Shown: positions 10,579 to 40,118 of the stretch, piece after piece
How the letters are laid out: each line of letters begins with the position of its first letter
Numbering within the stretch: position 1 is the first letter of the stretch
Source: a virus
Virus record (IMG/VR): IMGVR_UViG_3300028592_000042
Location: 1 to 40,118 of that record
Direction: 5' to 3' (one strand)
DNA: 40,118 nucleotides
Program-made: the position numbers and the translations under genes
Notes under the pieces: model-generated
Told to the model about the DNA's origin: nothing
The model's database searches: none
The model's input: only the letters and a program-made list of their open reading frames with translations

Positions 10579-11556
10579 ATGCCGTACGTGAAGACGACCG
10601 ATGACCTGCTGGCCGAGGCGCGCGGCGGTGTCGCTGCGCCCTCGGCCAATGGGCTCATCTCGCCTTCTGAGCTCCTGAGCTTCGCCGACAGTGACATGCG
10701 CACCGAGCTTGCGCAGATTCTTATCGGCACGCGCTCCGAGTACTGGCTCACCGACTACACGACGCCCGTCGTAGCGAGTCAGAGCACGTATCGGCTCCCC
10801 GACCGCGCGCTCGGCATGGGCCTGCGTGACGTGACCGTGCTCGACAGCGGCGGGCGCGAGTACAACTGCACGCAGATTCCCGCCGACCAGCGATACCTGT
10901 GGTCGCACGGGCAGAGCTGGGGTGAGTCGGGGCCGTTCGTCTTCACGTTTGAGAACGGCTCAGTGACCCTGCTGCCGACTCCCGCGCAGTCGAGTCAGTG
11001 GACGCTGCGGATGCGGTACTACGCCGAGCCGTCCACGCTCGACCTGCTCGAGAACTGTTCGGCGTTCTCCAACACGCCTCCCAGTCCGACGCAAATCGCG
11101 CTCGACGACACAGTCTCGCCGGCCACCGGCAACAATGCCGTGATCGACATCATCTACGGCGCCGGGATGCACGAAGTGATGTTCACTGAGCGGCTCGTGA
11201 ACAGCGCCGTTGGCACGACCATCATCCTCCAGGGCGATACGCCGATCGTTCCCGAGGACGTGGCGGGCAACGACGTTAGCAGTCTCACGCACTACGTCGC
11301 TCGGCTCGGCCGGACTCCCCTGCCGCCTATCCCGATGACGCTGTGGCCCGCGCTCGTGGCGCTCACGCGCCGCAGCTACTGCGAAGCCATCGGCGACATG
11401 CGCGGCATGGAGGCCGCCTCGGCGATGTACGAGCGGAAGAGGGCTGCCGCGCTGAGTCTCTTGCAGCCTCGAGTGGACGGCGAGGTGCGCCGGCCCGTCC
11501 CGCTCTTCACTCCGCTCCGTGGCGGTCGCTATCGCGGCAGAGGGTGGGCGCGATGA
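10579..11556 (+). CDS. Putative head-tail adaptor protein, 325 aa
   Basis: Starts four bases after the preceding stop. The first 75 residues form helices (TTDDLLAEARGG, SPSELLSFADSDMRTELAQILIG). Strand-rich stretches follow (STYRLPDRALGMGLRDVTVLDSG; GSVTLLPTPAQ; WTLRMRYYAEP), then a helical C-terminus (ALVALTRRSYCEAIGDMRGMEAASAMYERKRAAAL). This helical-then-sheet plan, and the position between coat and the giant hub protein, match adaptor proteins that extend the portal in short-tailed phages. It is longer than P22 gp4 (about 166). The assignment is positional. Confidence 0.6.
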   Translation: MPYVKTTDDLLAEARGGVAAPSANGLISPSELLSFADSDMRTELAQILIGTRSEYWLTDYTTPVVASQSTYRLPDRALGMGLRDVTVLDSGGREYNCTQIPADQRYLWSHGQSWGESGPFVFTFENGSVTLLPTPAQSSQWTLRMRYYAEPSTLDLLENCSAFSNTPPSPTQIALDDTVSPATGNNAVIDIIYGAGMHEVMFTERLVNSAVGTTIILQGDTPIVPEDVAGNDVSSLTHYVARLGRTPLPPIPMTLWPALVALTRRSYCEAIGDMRGMEAASAMYERKRAAALSLLQPRVDGEVRRPVPLFTPLRGGRYRGRGWAR

Positions 11557-26047: not shown

Positions 26048-26209
26048 ATTCCGCACAATCTCCGCACGCGCCGAGAAGCGGCCCTGGCGAGCCCATTCTC
26101 CTTGCGTTTCCTGCGTTCGGGCATCGCCCTTCTAAGCCGACGGTCGCCCGTTCAAATCGGGCCGGGCGCGTTAGGAATCCTGAGCAGGCTGTGCGGAATC
26201 CGTGCGGAG
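26048..26209. other. attP: attP: phage attachment site with core and arm sites
   Basis: A non-coding stretch. Its core (26129-26170) is the 3' half of a tRNA-Arg gene. On the left are ATTCCGCACA (26048-26057) and CTCCGCACG (26060-26068). On the right the same two sequences recur inverted, TGTGCGGAAT (26190-26199) and CGTGCGGAG (26201-26209). Each pair shares TCCGCAC spaced 11 bp apart, about one helical turn. Inverted arm pairs around a tRNA-derived core are the expected layout for a lambda-type tyrosine integrase. The integrase gene is 1.2 kb away (27433-28608). Confidence 0.85.
26129..26170 (+). other. attP core: 3' half of tRNA-Arg(TCT)
   Basis: Anticodon loop CTTCTAA (26129-26135, anticodon TCT at 26131-26133), a variable loop, a perfect T-stem (GCCCG / CGGGC), a canonical T-loop TTCAAAT (26151-26157), the acceptor 3' strand CGGGCGC and discriminator G at 26170. 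The D-arm and 5' acceptor strand are missing, and the 5' anticodon stem fits imperfectly. It is therefore a gene fragment. Integration here would rebuild a host tRNA-Arg(TCT) gene. CCA is not encoded. Confidence 0.85.
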
Positions 26210-26401
26210 TCATCCGCGCCTGGTCTCGCGTTCCGCAGCCTCGTCCAGCACGCGGCGCGCCCATGCGGAAAGGTCCTCGCCGCCGAGCTCAGCGGCGGCG
26301 CGCCACGCTGCGATCTGTGTGTCGAGCGCGCGCACCTCGAGCCGTTGCGTTCGCTTCTCGCCGTCCTGCGGCGGTCGTCCTCGGGACATCGGCTCCATCA
26401 T
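26210..26401 (-). CDS. Small ribbon-helix-helix-like DNA-binding protein, 63 aa
   Basis: Begins MMEPMSRGRPPQDGEKRTQRL, with ATG at 26401 or 26398 overlapping the stop of the methyltransferase gene upstream. A strand-like RTQRLEVRALDTQIAAW leads into a helix and a second helix (GGEDLSAWARRVLDEAAERE), as in CopG-type repressors. It abuts the attP arm at 26209. It is a candidate regulator of the methyltransferase promoter at 27384-27412, or an Xis-like architectural factor because of its position. Both are inferences. Confidence 0.6.
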   Translation of the reverse strand: MMEPMSRGRPPQDGEKRTQRLEVRALDTQIAAWRAAAELGGEDLSAWARRVLDEAAERETRRG

Positions 26402-27168
26402 GCCGCCTCTTGGAGAGCGGCGACCATCATCCGACCGATCGCCTCGGCGACCTGCGGCACGACCGCGTTGCCTAGAACGCGATGCCGATCTGACGCGAAG
26501 GGATCTCGGTCCAGTCGTCGGGGAACCCCATCGCCCACTCCACCCACTGCGGGAGGAGCGGTCCAGCAGGATGCAAGGGAAGCTCGCCCCGCTTCGCCAT
26601 CGTCCAGATGCTCGGCTTCCCCTTCGTCGCGTACGCCTCGCGATGGTCGTGCGGGTCCCCGTTGTTCGAGGAACCGTAGGAAGACGCCGTCGGGGTCGGC
26701 AACGACGAAGGTTCGAGCACGCAGATGCGGAGCTCCGACGGCTGCGGCAGGAACCGTGAGGGCAGCCGGAACGTAGCCGAGCGCTTCGAGGTCTCCGAGG
26801 ACCGTCGGAAGCCAGCGGCTCTGGCCATGCGTGACGTTCTCGACGACGACGCACGCAGGGTCGCACCGGTCGACGATGCGTGCGAACTGGAACCAGAGGC
26901 CGGATCGCGCTCCATTGATGCCCGCTCCCTTCCCCGCAACGCTGAGGTCCTGACACGGGAAGCCGCCGCAGATGAGATCGGCGTGCTCGACGCTCAGCGG
27001 AGACACGTCGTGCACGTCGTCGAGACGCTTCGCGTCTGGCCAGTGCTTCGAGAGCACGCGCCGACAGAACGGGTCGGCCTCGGCCTGCCACACCACATGA
27101 CCGAGGCCGGCGCGCTCGAGGCCAAGTTCCAGCCCGCCGATGCCGGCGAAGAGCGAGCCGATCTTCAC
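26398..27168 (-). CDS. DNA cytosine-5 methyltransferase
   Basis: 256 residues, GTG start at 27168 (MKIGSLFAGIGG). Transfers methyl groups from SAM to cytosine C5. Motif I FAGIGGLELG (7-16), motif IV GGFPCQDLS (68-76, catalytic C72), motif VI VENVT (109-113), motif VIII RARTFVV (150-156) and motif X GNAVVPQVAEAI (233-244) are all intact. The target-recognition part between VIII and X is short (about 70 residues), at the small end of the family. No restriction partner is seen nearby, so this is an orphan phage enzyme, plausibly protecting phage DNA from host restriction or altering expression. It is in an operon with 27165-27377 and the ribbon-helix-helix protein. Confidence 0.9.
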   Translation of the reverse strand: MKIGSLFAGIGGLELGLERAGLGHVVWQAEADPFCRRVLSKHWPDAKRLDDVHDVSPLSVEHADLICGGFPCQDLSVAGKGAGINGARSGLWFQFARIVDRCDPACVVVENVTHGQSRWLPTVLGDLEALGYVPAALTVPAAAVGAPHLRARTFVVADPDGVFLRFLEQRGPARPSRGVRDEGEAEHLDDGEAGRASLASCWTAPPAVGGVGDGVPRRLDRDPFASDRHRVLGNAVVPQVAEAIGRMMVAALQEAA

Positions 27169-27377
27169 GGCTTCTTCCCGAACGCGCGGAACGCGAAGAC
27201 TTCGCGGTAGAGCGCACCCAGCTCGGCGTGCTCCGCATCCCACGGCTGGAAGCGACCACGAGCCGCATCCACGCGCTGCGCGAGACGCTCGACGCGGCGG
27301 TAGCGGTCGCCCTTGCTCTCGCCGGGGATCTCGACCATGGCCGCACGGGTCTCGGTGGTGAGCGTCGCGATGTCCAT
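27165..27377 (-). CDS. Hypothetical protein, first gene of the methyltransferase operon, 70 aa
   Basis: ATG at 27377 lies only six bases after the -10 TATATA, so the transcript may start at the start codon (leaderless). An internal ATG encoding MVEIPGESKG is an alternative. Helical and charged (YRRVERLAQRVDAARGRFQPWDAEHAELGALYREVF), ending in a basic FGKKP tail. It overlaps the methyltransferase start by four bases. Unknown role. A regulator or partner of the enzyme is plausible. Confidence 0.6.
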   Translation of the reverse strand: MDIATLTTETRAAMVEIPGESKGDRYRRVERLAQRVDAARGRFQPWDAEHAELGALYREVFAFRAFGKKP

Positions 27378-27432: not shown

Positions 27433-28608
27433 CTAGCTCTCCTTCTTCCGCGCGCGCCGCACCTTCTCGCGCAGCCCTTCCGGCGCGAGATGCGCGTATT
27501 TTTGCGTCACCTGAACCGAGCTGTGCCCCATCCAGTCGCGCACCTCGTAGAGCGAGAGCGCGGGCATCCACGTGCCCATGACGAGGTGCGACGCGCACGT
27601 GTGCCGCAGGTCATGGAAGCGCACGTGCCTCGAGATGCCGGCGCGCCTGCACCAGCCGGGCATGCGCTTGCCCTTCGCGGCGTAGTAGTCGCGCCAGCGG
27701 GCGTCGTACGTGTCCGGGTGGCGCTTGCCCTTGTTGCGGCCGACGAGCTGCGGGAACACGGGTGCCGTGCCCACGCCAGGCTTCTGGTCGCGCCAGCGTC
27801 GGAGCGCGTCGAGAGGCGGCCCGAGCAACGGCACCTCGCGCGGCTTGTCGTTCTTCGACTCGCGCACCATCACGCGCGGATGCTCGCCGGAGAGCACGAC
27901 GTCCGACCACGTCAGCTTCCAGAGCTCCTCGCGTCGGAGCCCGGTGTAGATCGCGACCGTGTACATGGTGCGATAGGGCTCATCGGTCTCGATGCCGGTC
28001 GCGAGCGCGATCTCAGCGGGCGTCAGGAACGTCCACACGTCCTTCGTGGCGCCGCGCTGCTTCGGCACCTTCACGCCGTCGCACGGGTTGCTGCGCACCC
28101 TGCCCTCCTGCAGCGCGTCGGAGAACGCGAGCTTGAGCAGCGAGAAGCAGTGCTTGACCGTCTGCCGCGAGAGGTTCTCGCCGGTCTCGCGTAGCTCGGT
28201 CTTGCCGGTGACGGGCGACGTCACCGCGTCGGCGGCCTCGGTCTGCATGAGGCCGCGCACCCATGAGACGACGTCGGCCGTGTCGATACGCTTGATGGGC
28301 CGGTCGGCGAACGGCGCGTTGAGGATGTGCCGCTTCCACCGCGACCGTTCGCGGCGGATGCCACGCACGCCGTCTTGCTGGCGACGTGCGAGCCAGACGT
28401 CGCCCCACTCGCGGAGCGTGAGCGTCTGCGGCAGTTCCACGGCGCGAGCTCGGTGCAGTCGCACGGCGGCCTCGATCGCGGCGAGCGCCTCGGGCCTCGA
28501 GTCGTGCACGCCGAGGTTGTGGCGCTCGCCGTCGAGCATGACTTCCGCGCGGAACTTCCCGCGGTACGCCCACACGCTGCCGGTGCCGTGCTTGCGCTTC
28601 TTCGTCAA
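27433..28608 (-). CDS. int: Tyrosine integrase
   Basis: 391 residues, start TTG at 28608 with GGAGG six bases upstream. It recombines attP with attB. N-terminal arm-binding domain (about 1-60), core-binding domain (61-180), catalytic domain (about 190-391). Catalytic residues: R225 (TGLRREEL, 222-229), K252, H332 and R335 (HDLRHTCASH), H362 (GHSS) and Y371 (QKYAHL). All are in place. The coding strand overlaps the stop of the small upstream gene (TTGA). attP lies 1.2 kb past the 3' end, with the methyltransferase operon in between. Confidence 0.95.
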   Translation of the reverse strand: MTKKRKHGTGSVWAYRGKFRAEVMLDGERHNLGVHDSRPEALAAIEAAVRLHRARAVELPQTLTLREWGDVWLARRQQDGVRGIRRERSRWKRHILNAPFADRPIKRIDTADVVSWVRGLMQTEAADAVTSPVTGKTELRETGENLSRQTVKHCFSLLKLAFSDALQEGRVRSNPCDGVKVPKQRGATKDVWTFLTPAEIALATGIETDEPYRTMYTVAIYTGLRREELWKLTWSDVVLSGEHPRVMVRESKNDKPREVPLLGPPLDALRRWRDQKPGVGTAPVFPQLVGRNKGKRHPDTYDARWRDYYAAKGKRMPGWCRRAGISRHVRFHDLRHTCASHLVMGTWMPALSLYEVRDWMGHSSVQVTQKYAHLAPEGLREKVRRARKKES

Positions 28609-28793
28609 CGCCGCCTCCGGATCGTCTTCTTCTTCGAGAGCATCTCCGCCGCGTACCTGAGGTGCCGCTCCGTCACGACGACGGGCTCCTCCGGCTGCGG
28701 TTCGATGTTCGCCGCGGGCTCGCGACGCAGGCGCGCCACGACCGCTTCGGCGATGCGCTCCACGTCCTCGTCGCTGAGTCGCGGCTCCGCCAC
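28605..28793 (-). CDS. Small basic protein, candidate excisionase, 62 aa
   Basis: GTG start at 28793. Two helices (LSDEDVERIAEAVVARLRRE and ERHLRYAAEMLSKKKTIRRRR) with a Glu/Pro-rich linker. Strongly basic end. Its stop overlaps the integrase start, and small basic genes coupled to int are often excisionases (recombination directionality factors). The fold is not clearly a winged helix, so this is a positional guess. Confidence 0.5.
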   Translation of the reverse strand: MAEPRLSDEDVERIAEAVVARLRREPAANIEPQPEEPVVVTERHLRYAAEMLSKKKTIRRRR

Positions 28794-37278: not shown

Positions 37279-37649
37279 GGTCCAAGGCTGCAATCGACGC
37301 CGCAATGGCGTCGCGCGATGAGCGTCTGCACCTCTCCGTGACTGACGCGGAGTTCGATGGCGCGCTGAGCGCTGGTGCCATGCACTACGCGGCGCACATT
37401 GAGGGACAGCCGGCGCTGCCACAGCCTCCCGACTGGCTCGCTCGCCGCGGTGGCATCTCCGAGGCAGCAAAGCTGCTGGCGGCGATCGTCTCCGAGCTCG
37501 GCGCCTGCCGTCCCGCTGACGTGTGGGCCCGCATCGGCAACGCGATGGGCTCGCAGGAGTGGAGTCGGTTCCTCGATGAGGCGGTATCCGTCGGCATCGT
37601 GATGAAGACCCCTGATCACCGTCTCGTCGTGCGCAAGAGGGCCGCGTGA
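37275..37649 (+). CDS. Hypothetical protein, 124 aa
   Basis: GTG at 37275. Helical front (AIDAAMASRDERLH, EFDGALSAGAMHYAAHI). The C-terminal half (SEAAKLLAAIVSELGACRPADVWARIG...FLDEAVSVGIVMKTPDHRLVVRKR) resembles a winged-helix. It stands directly before the initiator gene, so it may help origin recognition or be a regulator. Inferred from fold only. Confidence 0.6.
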   Translation: MRSKAAIDAAMASRDERLHLSVTDAEFDGALSAGAMHYAAHIEGQPALPQPPDWLARRGGISEAAKLLAAIVSELGACRPADVWARIGNAMGSQEWSRFLDEAVSVGIVMKTPDHRLVVRKRAA

Positions 37650-38590
37650 CCTGGTACCGCGTCGACGACGGCTTCCCCGATCATCCGAAGCTCGAGCAGC
37701 TCGAGGCGGATGCGACTGAGCACGCGCTCGCGATCGCAGCGTGGACGCTCATGGGCGCCGACTGCGCGAAGCGCCGCACTGATGGGCTCTTCACCGAGCA
37801 CCGGCTGCGCCGCCGTATCCACTGGCCCGAGGCGCTGGTCACGAAGGCGCGCGATGCGCTTATCCGCGTCGGCCTCTGGATTCGCCGCAGCGAGACCGAG
37901 CTCCAGTTTCACGACTGGAGCGACTACCAGCCGACCCGCTCTGAGCTGGACGAGGACCGCCGCCTCGCGACCGAGCGTCAGAAGCGCTGGCGTCAGAAGC
38001 GCCGCGCCGACCGTGCGGCGGGTGTAGACGGTGGTGTAGACGCGTCTACAAACGCGTCTACAAACGCATCGACAAACGCGTCACGAGATGCGTCACGAGA
38101 CGGGTTACGAGACGCGTCGGTAGACGCAGGGAGTGGTGCGTCTACCGTAGACGCCCCTGTAGACGGTGCCCCGTCCCGTCCCGTCCCGTCCCGTCCGACT
38201 TCGTCGTGTGTGAGCGACGACGACGATCCGGAACCTGTCCGTCCTACTGCCCAGCTCTCGGCGATGAAGGCCTATGCCGAGGCGCTCCATGCGGTTGGCG
38301 GGATCTTCACGGGCGGCGCCAACTGGCGGGATGACTTCCGCGCTGTTGAGCGCCTTGCAGAGGCGTACGCCGCATCGCGCCGCATGAGCCGCGACAACGT
38401 CCTTCGTGGCTGGGCTGACCGCTACATGAAGGACCGAAACTCTCGGCGCCCCGACTGGTGGCACGAGCGCTGTGTGACGTGGGCCTCTGAGGCTCCGCCC
38501 AAGGCCGTCACGGTCGCTCGAGAGCCGAACGAAGACGCCATCGCGAAGGCCAAGGCGCGACTGCTCGCGCAGAAGGGGGTGGGGACGTGA
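37646..38590 (+). CDS. Replication initiator (O-like / replisome organiser)
   Basis: 314 residues, GTG start. The N-terminus MTWYRVDDGFPDHPKLEQLE and following helices (EHALAIAAWTLMGAD; DGLFTEHRLRRRI, then ALIRVGLWIR) match the winged-helix start of phage replication initiators (O and DnaD-like organisers). Residues 126-175 are low-complexity and are encoded by the iterons. The C-terminus (MKAYAEALHAVGGIF, RMSRDNVLRGWADRYMKDR) probably binds the helicase that follows. It should load the DnaB-type enzyme at the origin inside its own gene, as lambda O does. Confidence 0.75.
   Translation: MTWYRVDDGFPDHPKLEQLEADATEHALAIAAWTLMGADCAKRRTDGLFTEHRLRRRIHWPEALVTKARDALIRVGLWIRRSETELQFHDWSDYQPTRSELDEDRRLATERQKRWRQKRRADRAAGVDGGVDASTNASTNASTNASRDASRDGLRDASVDAGSGASTVDAPVDGAPSRPVPSRPTSSCVSDDDDPEPVRPTAQLSAMKAYAEALHAVGGIFTGGANWRDDFRAVERLAEAYAASRRMSRDNVLRGWADRYMKDRNSRRPDWWHERCVTWASEAPPKAVTVAREPNEDAIAKAKARLLAQKGVGT
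38021..38170. repeat. Iterons and predicted replication origin
   Basis: About nine tandem 12-bp units (for example GGTGTAGACGGT, TCTACAAACGCG, TCACGAGATGCG) occur from 38021 to 38128, followed by partial copies (TCTACCGTAGACG) to about 38170. Within them is a perfect 16-bp palindrome TGTAGACGCGTCTACA (38035-38050). The 12-base unit keeps the reading frame (four residues). In-gene iterons within an initiator gene are the mark of a lambda-type origin. Confidence 0.75.
38171..38195. repeat. Five tandem CCGTC pentamers
   Basis: Five perfect CCGTC units in the initiator coding sequence. Because 5 is not a multiple of 3, loss or gain of one unit would shift the frame and remove the C-terminal helicase-contact part. 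Could be a phase-variation element or simply a slippage-prone tract. Confidence 0.8.
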
Positions 38591-39895: not shown

Positions 39896-40118
39896 ATGGC
39901 CTACCGCAAGAACGAGAAGCCTGAGGTGGACGAGATCCCCGTGCGTGCGCCGATTCGGTGGCATCGAGCGAGCGTCCCCGCTGTGGCGCTTCTGTGGCTG
40001 GCGTTCGCCGTAGCGGCTGACTTCGGCGCGCTGGAGCACATGCACGCTGTTCGCGTCTGGGCGCTGCTCGTGCTGCTCGGCAGCAGCGTAGGCGCGCTGT
40101 TCTGGAACATGCACTGGG
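39896..40118 (+). CDS. Small two-helix membrane protein, 5' part (continues at 1-150)
   Basis: Read across the circular join, this gene encodes 81 residues. The ATG at 39896 follows a GGGGG stretch about 7 bases upstream. The first 25 residues are charged. Two hydrophobic segments follow, roughly residues 27-42 (ALLWLAFAVA) and 52-70 (VWALLVLLGSS), then a short basic tail ending KGRW. It sits between the helicase gene and the rusA gene in the early operon. A small inner-membrane protein here could be a host-takeover, superinfection-exclusion or holin-like factor. Nothing in the sequence chooses between these. The gene is complete only on the circular molecule. Confidence 0.7.
   Translation, partial: MAYRKNEKPEVDEIPVRAPIRWHRASVPAVALLWLAFAVAADFGALEHMHAVRVWALLVLLGSSVGALFWNMHW
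39992..40118. repeat. Terminal overlap, copy 2 (circular closure)
   Basis: Exact second copy of bases 1-127. It lies inside the coding sequence of the small membrane protein that starts at 39896 and ends at 150. Confidence 0.95.

Follow-up and report, generated by a model that had tools for sequence, protein, structure and literature searches.

The question that this locus raises is where, and by what means, the phage that carries it enters the chromosome of its host. The window, i.e., the whole stretch of DNA that was analyzed (40,118 nt), is an entire IMG/VR virus record. Its bases 1–127 are identical to 39992–40118, which indicates a circularly assembled genome with a unique length of ~39,991 bp. 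The value 127 is a common assembler k-mer, and the repeat is probably an assembly (k-mer) overlap rather than a genuine terminal repeat. The genes include a terminase, a portal, a major head protein, a repressor match, a RecT-like protein, a replication initiator, a DnaB-like helicase and a tyrosine integrase, and the GC content of the phage DNA is 67–72%. A circular assembly together with an integrase and a repressor match is what a temperate phage should have. For the structural genes the best named relative is a Silvanigrella aquatica phage (20–27% identity). No DNA-level similarity to phage records was found, integrases in phage records are at most 28% identical to the one studied here, and single-sequence queries with the integrase and the terminase against viral contigs gave no close relatives. 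Plasmid records held no relative of the terminase and only integrases of 25–28% identity. We suggest, with a probability of roughly 0.93, that positions 26048–26208 are the attP of a temperate tailed phage, whose integrase (27433–28608) carries out the exchange at the anticodon region of a host tRNA-Arg(TCT).

The tRNA half at the core

The attP core (26129–26170, + strand) reads as the 3' half of a tRNA-Arg(TCT), from the anticodon loop to the discriminator base; this is based on the sequence, the Rfam tRNA model and ARAGORN analysis of chimeras. On the same strand, the anticodon loop CTTCTAA (26129–26135) is followed by the 3' strand of the anticodon stem, GCCGA (26136–26140), and by the variable region CGGTC (26141–26145). 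The T-stem strands GCCCG (26146–26150) and CGGGC (26158–26162) pair at five of five positions around the T-loop TTCAAAT (26151–26157), and the half ends with the acceptor 3' strand CGGGCGC (26163–26169) and the discriminator G (26170). Direct reading thus confirmed to the base the first-pass annotation, in which this core was described as a tRNA-Arg(TCT) 3' half with a perfect T-arm. The TCT anticodon, the GCCGA stem and the CGGGCGC acceptor strand all match tRNA-Arg(TCT) genes. ARAGORN called no complete tRNA over all 40,118 nt, and the Rfam tRNA model matched 26113–26170 with 25.2 bits (E 0.002, local scan), short of its gathering score of 29; both results are expected because the core is only half a tRNA.

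The extent first given to the core needs a small correction, as the similarity to tRNA-Arg(TCT) continues slightly further left, to ~26120. This extension (26120–26128, + strand) lies on the 5' side of the anticodon stem and reads GGCATCGCC versus AGCATCGGC, with four of five stem pairs and a C/G mismatch at 26127. The reference tRNA-Arg(TCT) genes come from Kapabacteria and Bacteroidota MAGs (L003 and L002) and read ...GAGCATCGGCCTTCTAAGCCGA... at this place. It is probably a left core-type site. When real tRNA-Arg(TCT) 5' halves were joined to 26129–26170, the chimeras were called tRNA-Arg(tct) by ARAGORN, and with GCGCCCG 5' halves the acceptor stem pairs at 7/7 positions and every arm is paired. 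The 5' halves were taken from two Bacteroidota/Kapabacteria tRNA-Arg(TCT) genes, which are not believed to belong to hosts. In silico, then, the phage half is fit for rebuilding the tRNA gene that it enters.

Arm repeats and the integrase

Around the core there are four copies of TCCGCAC, which are putative arm-type sites of the integrase. Two are found in the P arm on the + strand (26050–26056 and 26061–26067) and two in the P' arm on the − strand (26191–26197 and 26202–26208), with a spacing of 11 bp in each pair; the distance between the anticodon loop and the first P' repeat is 56 bp. A 10-mer, ATTCCGCACA, is found at 26048–26057 and has an inverted copy at 26190–26199. Both the two oppositely oriented pairs and the 10-mer common to the two arms had been proposed before, and their positions were verified by direct reading. 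The word itself is not rare, with 11 copies in the full 40,118 nt versus 12.6 expected, and four of the 11 fall inside the 160-bp attP stretch. What is unusual is how the copies are arranged: when all 40,118 nt were shuffled with dinucleotide composition kept, an equal-spaced pair of exact 7-mers together with an inverted pair of the same spacing within 260 bp appeared in one of 200 shuffles. In the real sequence the same four-copy pattern is seen elsewhere solely in a repeat array at 38023–38160. This array contains 12-bp tandem repeats and inverted copies (GTAGACG/CGTCTAC), is iteron-like, lies inside the replication initiation gene (37646–38590) and is a possible origin of replication; lambda O likewise has an origin inside the initiator gene.

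The integrase is a 391 amino acid tyrosine integrase encoded on the − strand (27433–28608; PF00589, E 2.2e-22; PHROG integrase, E 2.4e-57). It has the full catalytic set (R225, K252, H332, R335, H362, and Y371), which is kept in its relatives. The Pfam arm-binding domain gave no match in this protein, even at a loose threshold, and for this reason its structure was predicted. The AlphaFold2 model (mean pLDDT 85, pTM 0.57) consists of three strands and a helix (residues 9–57), a helical domain (64–166) and the catalytic domain, and it most closely matches the folds of full-length lambda integrase (1z1b, E 9e-12) and of the Tn1549 integrase. The N-terminus is therefore predicted to be a lambda-like arm-binding domain. 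Lambda Int, the best fold match at full length, likewise has arm-binding, core-binding and catalytic domains, but its sequence identity to the phage integrase is only ~18–20%, and lambda attB is not a tRNA gene.

The integrase gene lies 1.3 kb from attP, while in most relatives attP is adjacent to it. The space between is occupied by a C5-cytosine DNA methyltransferase gene (26398–27243, − strand; PF00145, E 7.5e-40; PHROG DNA methyltransferase), which is not part of the site; one other locus (L066) has a stretch that is 55% identical to this methyltransferase.

In the mechanism that we propose, the N-terminal domain of the integrase would bind the TCCGCAC arm sites and its core-binding and catalytic domains would bind core sites around the anticodon stem-loop, so that the protein would bridge arm and core sites. 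Strand exchange would take place with the anticodon region of the host tRNA-Arg(TCT), with a crossover that we place, provisionally, in the anticodon loop. After integration the host 5' half would be joined to the phage 3' half (26129–26170) and the junction would encode a whole, hybrid tRNA-Arg(TCT), while the 3' half of the host gene would end up at the opposite end of the prophage.

Related integrases and their attachment sites

A profile search with four integrases yielded 16 distinct contigs, whose integrases are 32–43% identical to that of the phage. Most of these relatives were identified by their integrase rather than by their att site. In 11 of the 16 contigs an antisense T-arm is present within 300 bp downstream of the integrase gene, versus an expectation of 0.004 per locus, and a sense-orientation T-arm in the same 300 bp was found in none of the 16. 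Two other contigs have the T-arm 1.4–1.7 kb from the integrase gene (L059 and L064; the L064 core is at 1.7 kb) and in L068 the T-arm is imperfect. In most relatives the tRNA half starts at the anticodon loop, and the T-arms remain paired even though their letters differ. Their anticodons vary as well: Arg (TCT, CCT, and CCG), Thr (CGT), Val (CAC) and Ala (GGC), with others less clear.

Paired inverted arm repeats were defined as two 8-mers, 9–12 bp apart, to the left of the core and an inverted pair of this kind to its right, allowing three mismatches overall. They were found in 13 of 16 attP sites, this phage's included, versus 17 of 922 random sites drawn from the same loci (1.8%). The repeats of a pair in the relatives stand about 10–11 bp apart. 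Of the 16 attP sites, 14 have a left-pair spacing of exactly 11 bp. The letters of the arms change from phage to phage (TCCGCAC, GGCAACAC, GGCCACCA, TGTCCCAC, ATCCGTCC, CTGGCCGG, and ACCTGTCC). This recurrence of arm pairs supports the earlier proposal that the locus is an attP with likely integrase arm sites, which the integrase may be expected to bind. The distance between the outer left repeat and the anticodon stem is mostly 54–58 bp, is 66 and 68 bp in L064 and L065, and is 75 bp in this phage; few as they are, these distances appear to change in increments of one helical turn. A general rule that the arms are centered on the anticodon loop, as they are here (midpoint 26129), was considered and rejected, as the centers in the relatives G004 and G005 are off by 19 and ~34 bp. 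Relatives do not preserve the near-perfect symmetry of the arms, so it cannot serve as evidence of where the crossover lies.

The closest phage overall is L064 (TerL 41%, portal 31%, MCP 37%, and RecT 31%), and it shares the unusual gap between integrase gene and core, which in L064 is filled by other genes. The integrase closest in sequence (43–46%) is that of L070, where a tRNA-Arg(ACG)-like gene with an odd T-arm is found at ~11139–11221, in the opposite orientation downstream of the integrase gene; it represents either a different type of junction or a degenerate half. In three loci (L008, 1–1413; L053, 3936–5537; and L052, 2025–3620) the integrase frame is open through the arm repeats and the antisense tRNA core. 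Integration might thus alter the integrase C-terminus in these phages, or the open frame could be due to chance in high-GC DNA.

Another feature of these loci is a small ORF that ends at or near the start of the integrase gene, in this phage and in most relatives. Here it encodes 62 amino acids (28605–28793, − strand), overlaps the integrase start codon and is a candidate accessory or directionality factor. Comparison of the C-terminal 32 residues of eleven such proteins gave a mean local score of 27.7 versus 20.6 for shuffled sequences (sd 0.6, largest 22.1). The 62-aa protein of this phage is less distinct, with 23.7 versus 20.1 (sd 1.6). The small ORFs of about ten relatives share a C-terminal motif that is roughly D/E-x-x-R-A-x-x-L-x-R-x-G, and no family for the 62-aa ORF was found in PHROGs, Pfam or NCBIfam. 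That its product is a recombination directionality factor or an accessory protein is a guess. Tentatively, and with more doubt than confidence, one can suggest an undescribed integrase subfamily of uncultivated phages that keeps the attP plan (a half starting at the anticodon loop and an 11-bp left pair), leaves arm letters and tRNA isotype free, and comes with a small protein whose ORF overlaps or abuts the integrase start, perhaps a directionality or accessory factor of a new type.

The target and known systems

Another question is whether tRNA-Arg(TCT) itself is the target. A degenerate tRNA-Arg(TCT) pattern retrieved 34 stretches from IMG/VR, among them L008, which belongs to contig 3300037311_000443 (G003; 40,160 bp) and encodes an integrase 38–40% identical to that of the phage. 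In this contig an intact tRNA-Arg(TCT) at 181–256 is followed by the integrase gene on the opposite strand. At 275–294, TTTGGAGCAG is present twice with a 10-bp spacing and lies 56 bp beyond the anticodon loop, the same distance as that of the first P' repeat here. The start of the contig reads as the tail of another tRNA, apparently host DNA. With the intact tRNA, this makes G003 look like an integrated junction; only the right-hand repeat pair is visible, the left flank being host DNA, and no second (partner) junction was found on the contig. The phage attP differs in that it holds half a tRNA and TCCGCAC at 11 bp. The intact tRNA-Arg(TCT) of this relative and the completion of real 5' halves by the phage core both support the target that had been named by the first-pass annotation, and tRNA-Arg(TCT) is thus its likely identity. 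Kin of the integrase were also sought among other phages with tRNA-Arg(TCT) cores (L038/L039, L011, L014, L018, L028, L030, and L033) and were rejected, as their sequences are dissimilar; L014 and L030, unlike the other unrelated ones, have a partial match of 28% to the phage integrase. L038 (82–115) and L039 (14318–14351) are on one provirus-like contig (3300009553_000023; 65,447 bp), one end of which carries a complete tRNA-Arg(TCT) and the other a half that starts at the anticodon loop; by their sequence, these ends are the attL and attR of another integrase at tRNA-Arg(TCT).

In host genomes, where a match to the core had been proposed as a check, an exact 41-mer of the core had no match among 84,980 species genomes, and an exact 34-mer had none in IMG/VR. 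A looser pattern matched two genes only, which are indeed tRNA-Arg(TCT) genes, from Bacteroidota/Kapabacteria; these MAGs are not believed to be hosts. No attB, attL, attR or prophage junction of this phage was seen in the genomes searched. Either the host is unsampled, or its tRNA departs from the core at positions that the phage half would overwrite. The result weighs against the reading but does not refute tRNA-Arg(TCT) as the target, because the host may not be among the genomes searched and the core need not equal its tRNA letter for letter. In phage Boilgate, 5 of 43 positions differ between attP and attB-4 (PMC10865867).

Boilgate also offers a close parallel. It uses tRNA-Lys(TTT) with a 43-bp core over the tRNA 3' half, the mismatches with the host leave the tRNA foldable, and arm-type sites flank the core (PMC10865867); the site described here likewise combines a tRNA 3' half with flanking arm-type sites. 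Fionnbharth, which uses the same tRNA-Lys(TTT), keeps 10 bp only and needs a phage tRNA (PMC10865867). This suggests a different reading of our locus, in which ~10 bp would be shared at the anticodon, the host tRNA destroyed and a phage tRNA put in its place. The exchange region here may be as short, as there is no host match that fixes the shared length. Yet ARAGORN finds no tRNA gene in the circularly assembled genome, the full 42-nt half, with its paired T-arm and acceptor strand, completes a tRNA, and the T-arms of most relatives are kept paired though their letters differ, all of which make such tRNA-dependent lysogeny very unlikely here. Cores at the anticodon loop are usual in mycobacteriophages. 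Their common core normally spans 30–45 bp and includes the tRNA 3' half, and tRNA-dependent lysogeny is exceptional (PMC10865867).

Equally improbable is a target other than tRNA-Arg(TCT), whether a different tRNA or a tRNA-Arg pseudogene, with just the anticodon loop region in common; the relatives do use several isotypes and no host was seen, but the anticodon, the GCCGA stem and the acceptor strand fit tRNA-Arg(TCT), the tRNA that G003 adjoins. The least likely reading is a decayed or captured phage tRNA gene that lost its 5' half beside repeats that arose by chance: phages do carry tRNA genes and remnants, and the 5' side retains some similarity (26120–26128), but the 3' half is intact, the break falls at the anticodon loop in most relatives, the half is antisense and downstream of the integrase gene, and the paired arm repeats recur in 13/16 sites versus 1.8% of random ones.

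The reading as an attP for tRNA-Arg(TCT) also fits two systems with known layouts. The attP of mycobacteriophage CrimD (Cluster K1) has two pairs of 11-bp arm-type repeats, with P3/P4 inverted relative to P1/P2 (PMC3203893), which is the same four-site layout as in this phage. CrimD differs in its core, which is the 24-bp 3' end of a tmRNA with exchange near the T-stem (PMC3203893), in its attP, which lies on the 5' side of the integrase gene, and in the repeat letters. In Omega and Cluster J a 44-bp core begins in a tRNA anticodon loop ~100 bp past the 3' end of the integrase gene, and integration was shown experimentally (PMC3706429). Like this phage, they have a core that starts in the anticodon loop and is flanked on both sides by paired arm sites, whereas the tRNA there is tRNA-Leu, the arm consensus is another, and here the integrase gene is 1.3 kb off with the methyltransferase gene between. 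The attP plan itself is therefore already known from CrimD and Cluster J, and the site described here is a well-supported further case.

For an uncultivated phage, this names a likely chromosomal target. Where the acceptor stem of a tRNA-Arg(TCT) gene is GCGCCCG/CGGGCGC, the integrase and its attP also form a ready-made pair that could serve to integrate DNA into high-GC hosts. In the ~15 related attP sites the arm repeats differ and the integrase sequence is known, which makes a code between the N-terminal domain and the arm sites testable. Furthermore, a half-tRNA with inverted paired repeats beside an integrase gene predicts insertion targets from metagenomic phage contigs that are not linked to a host.
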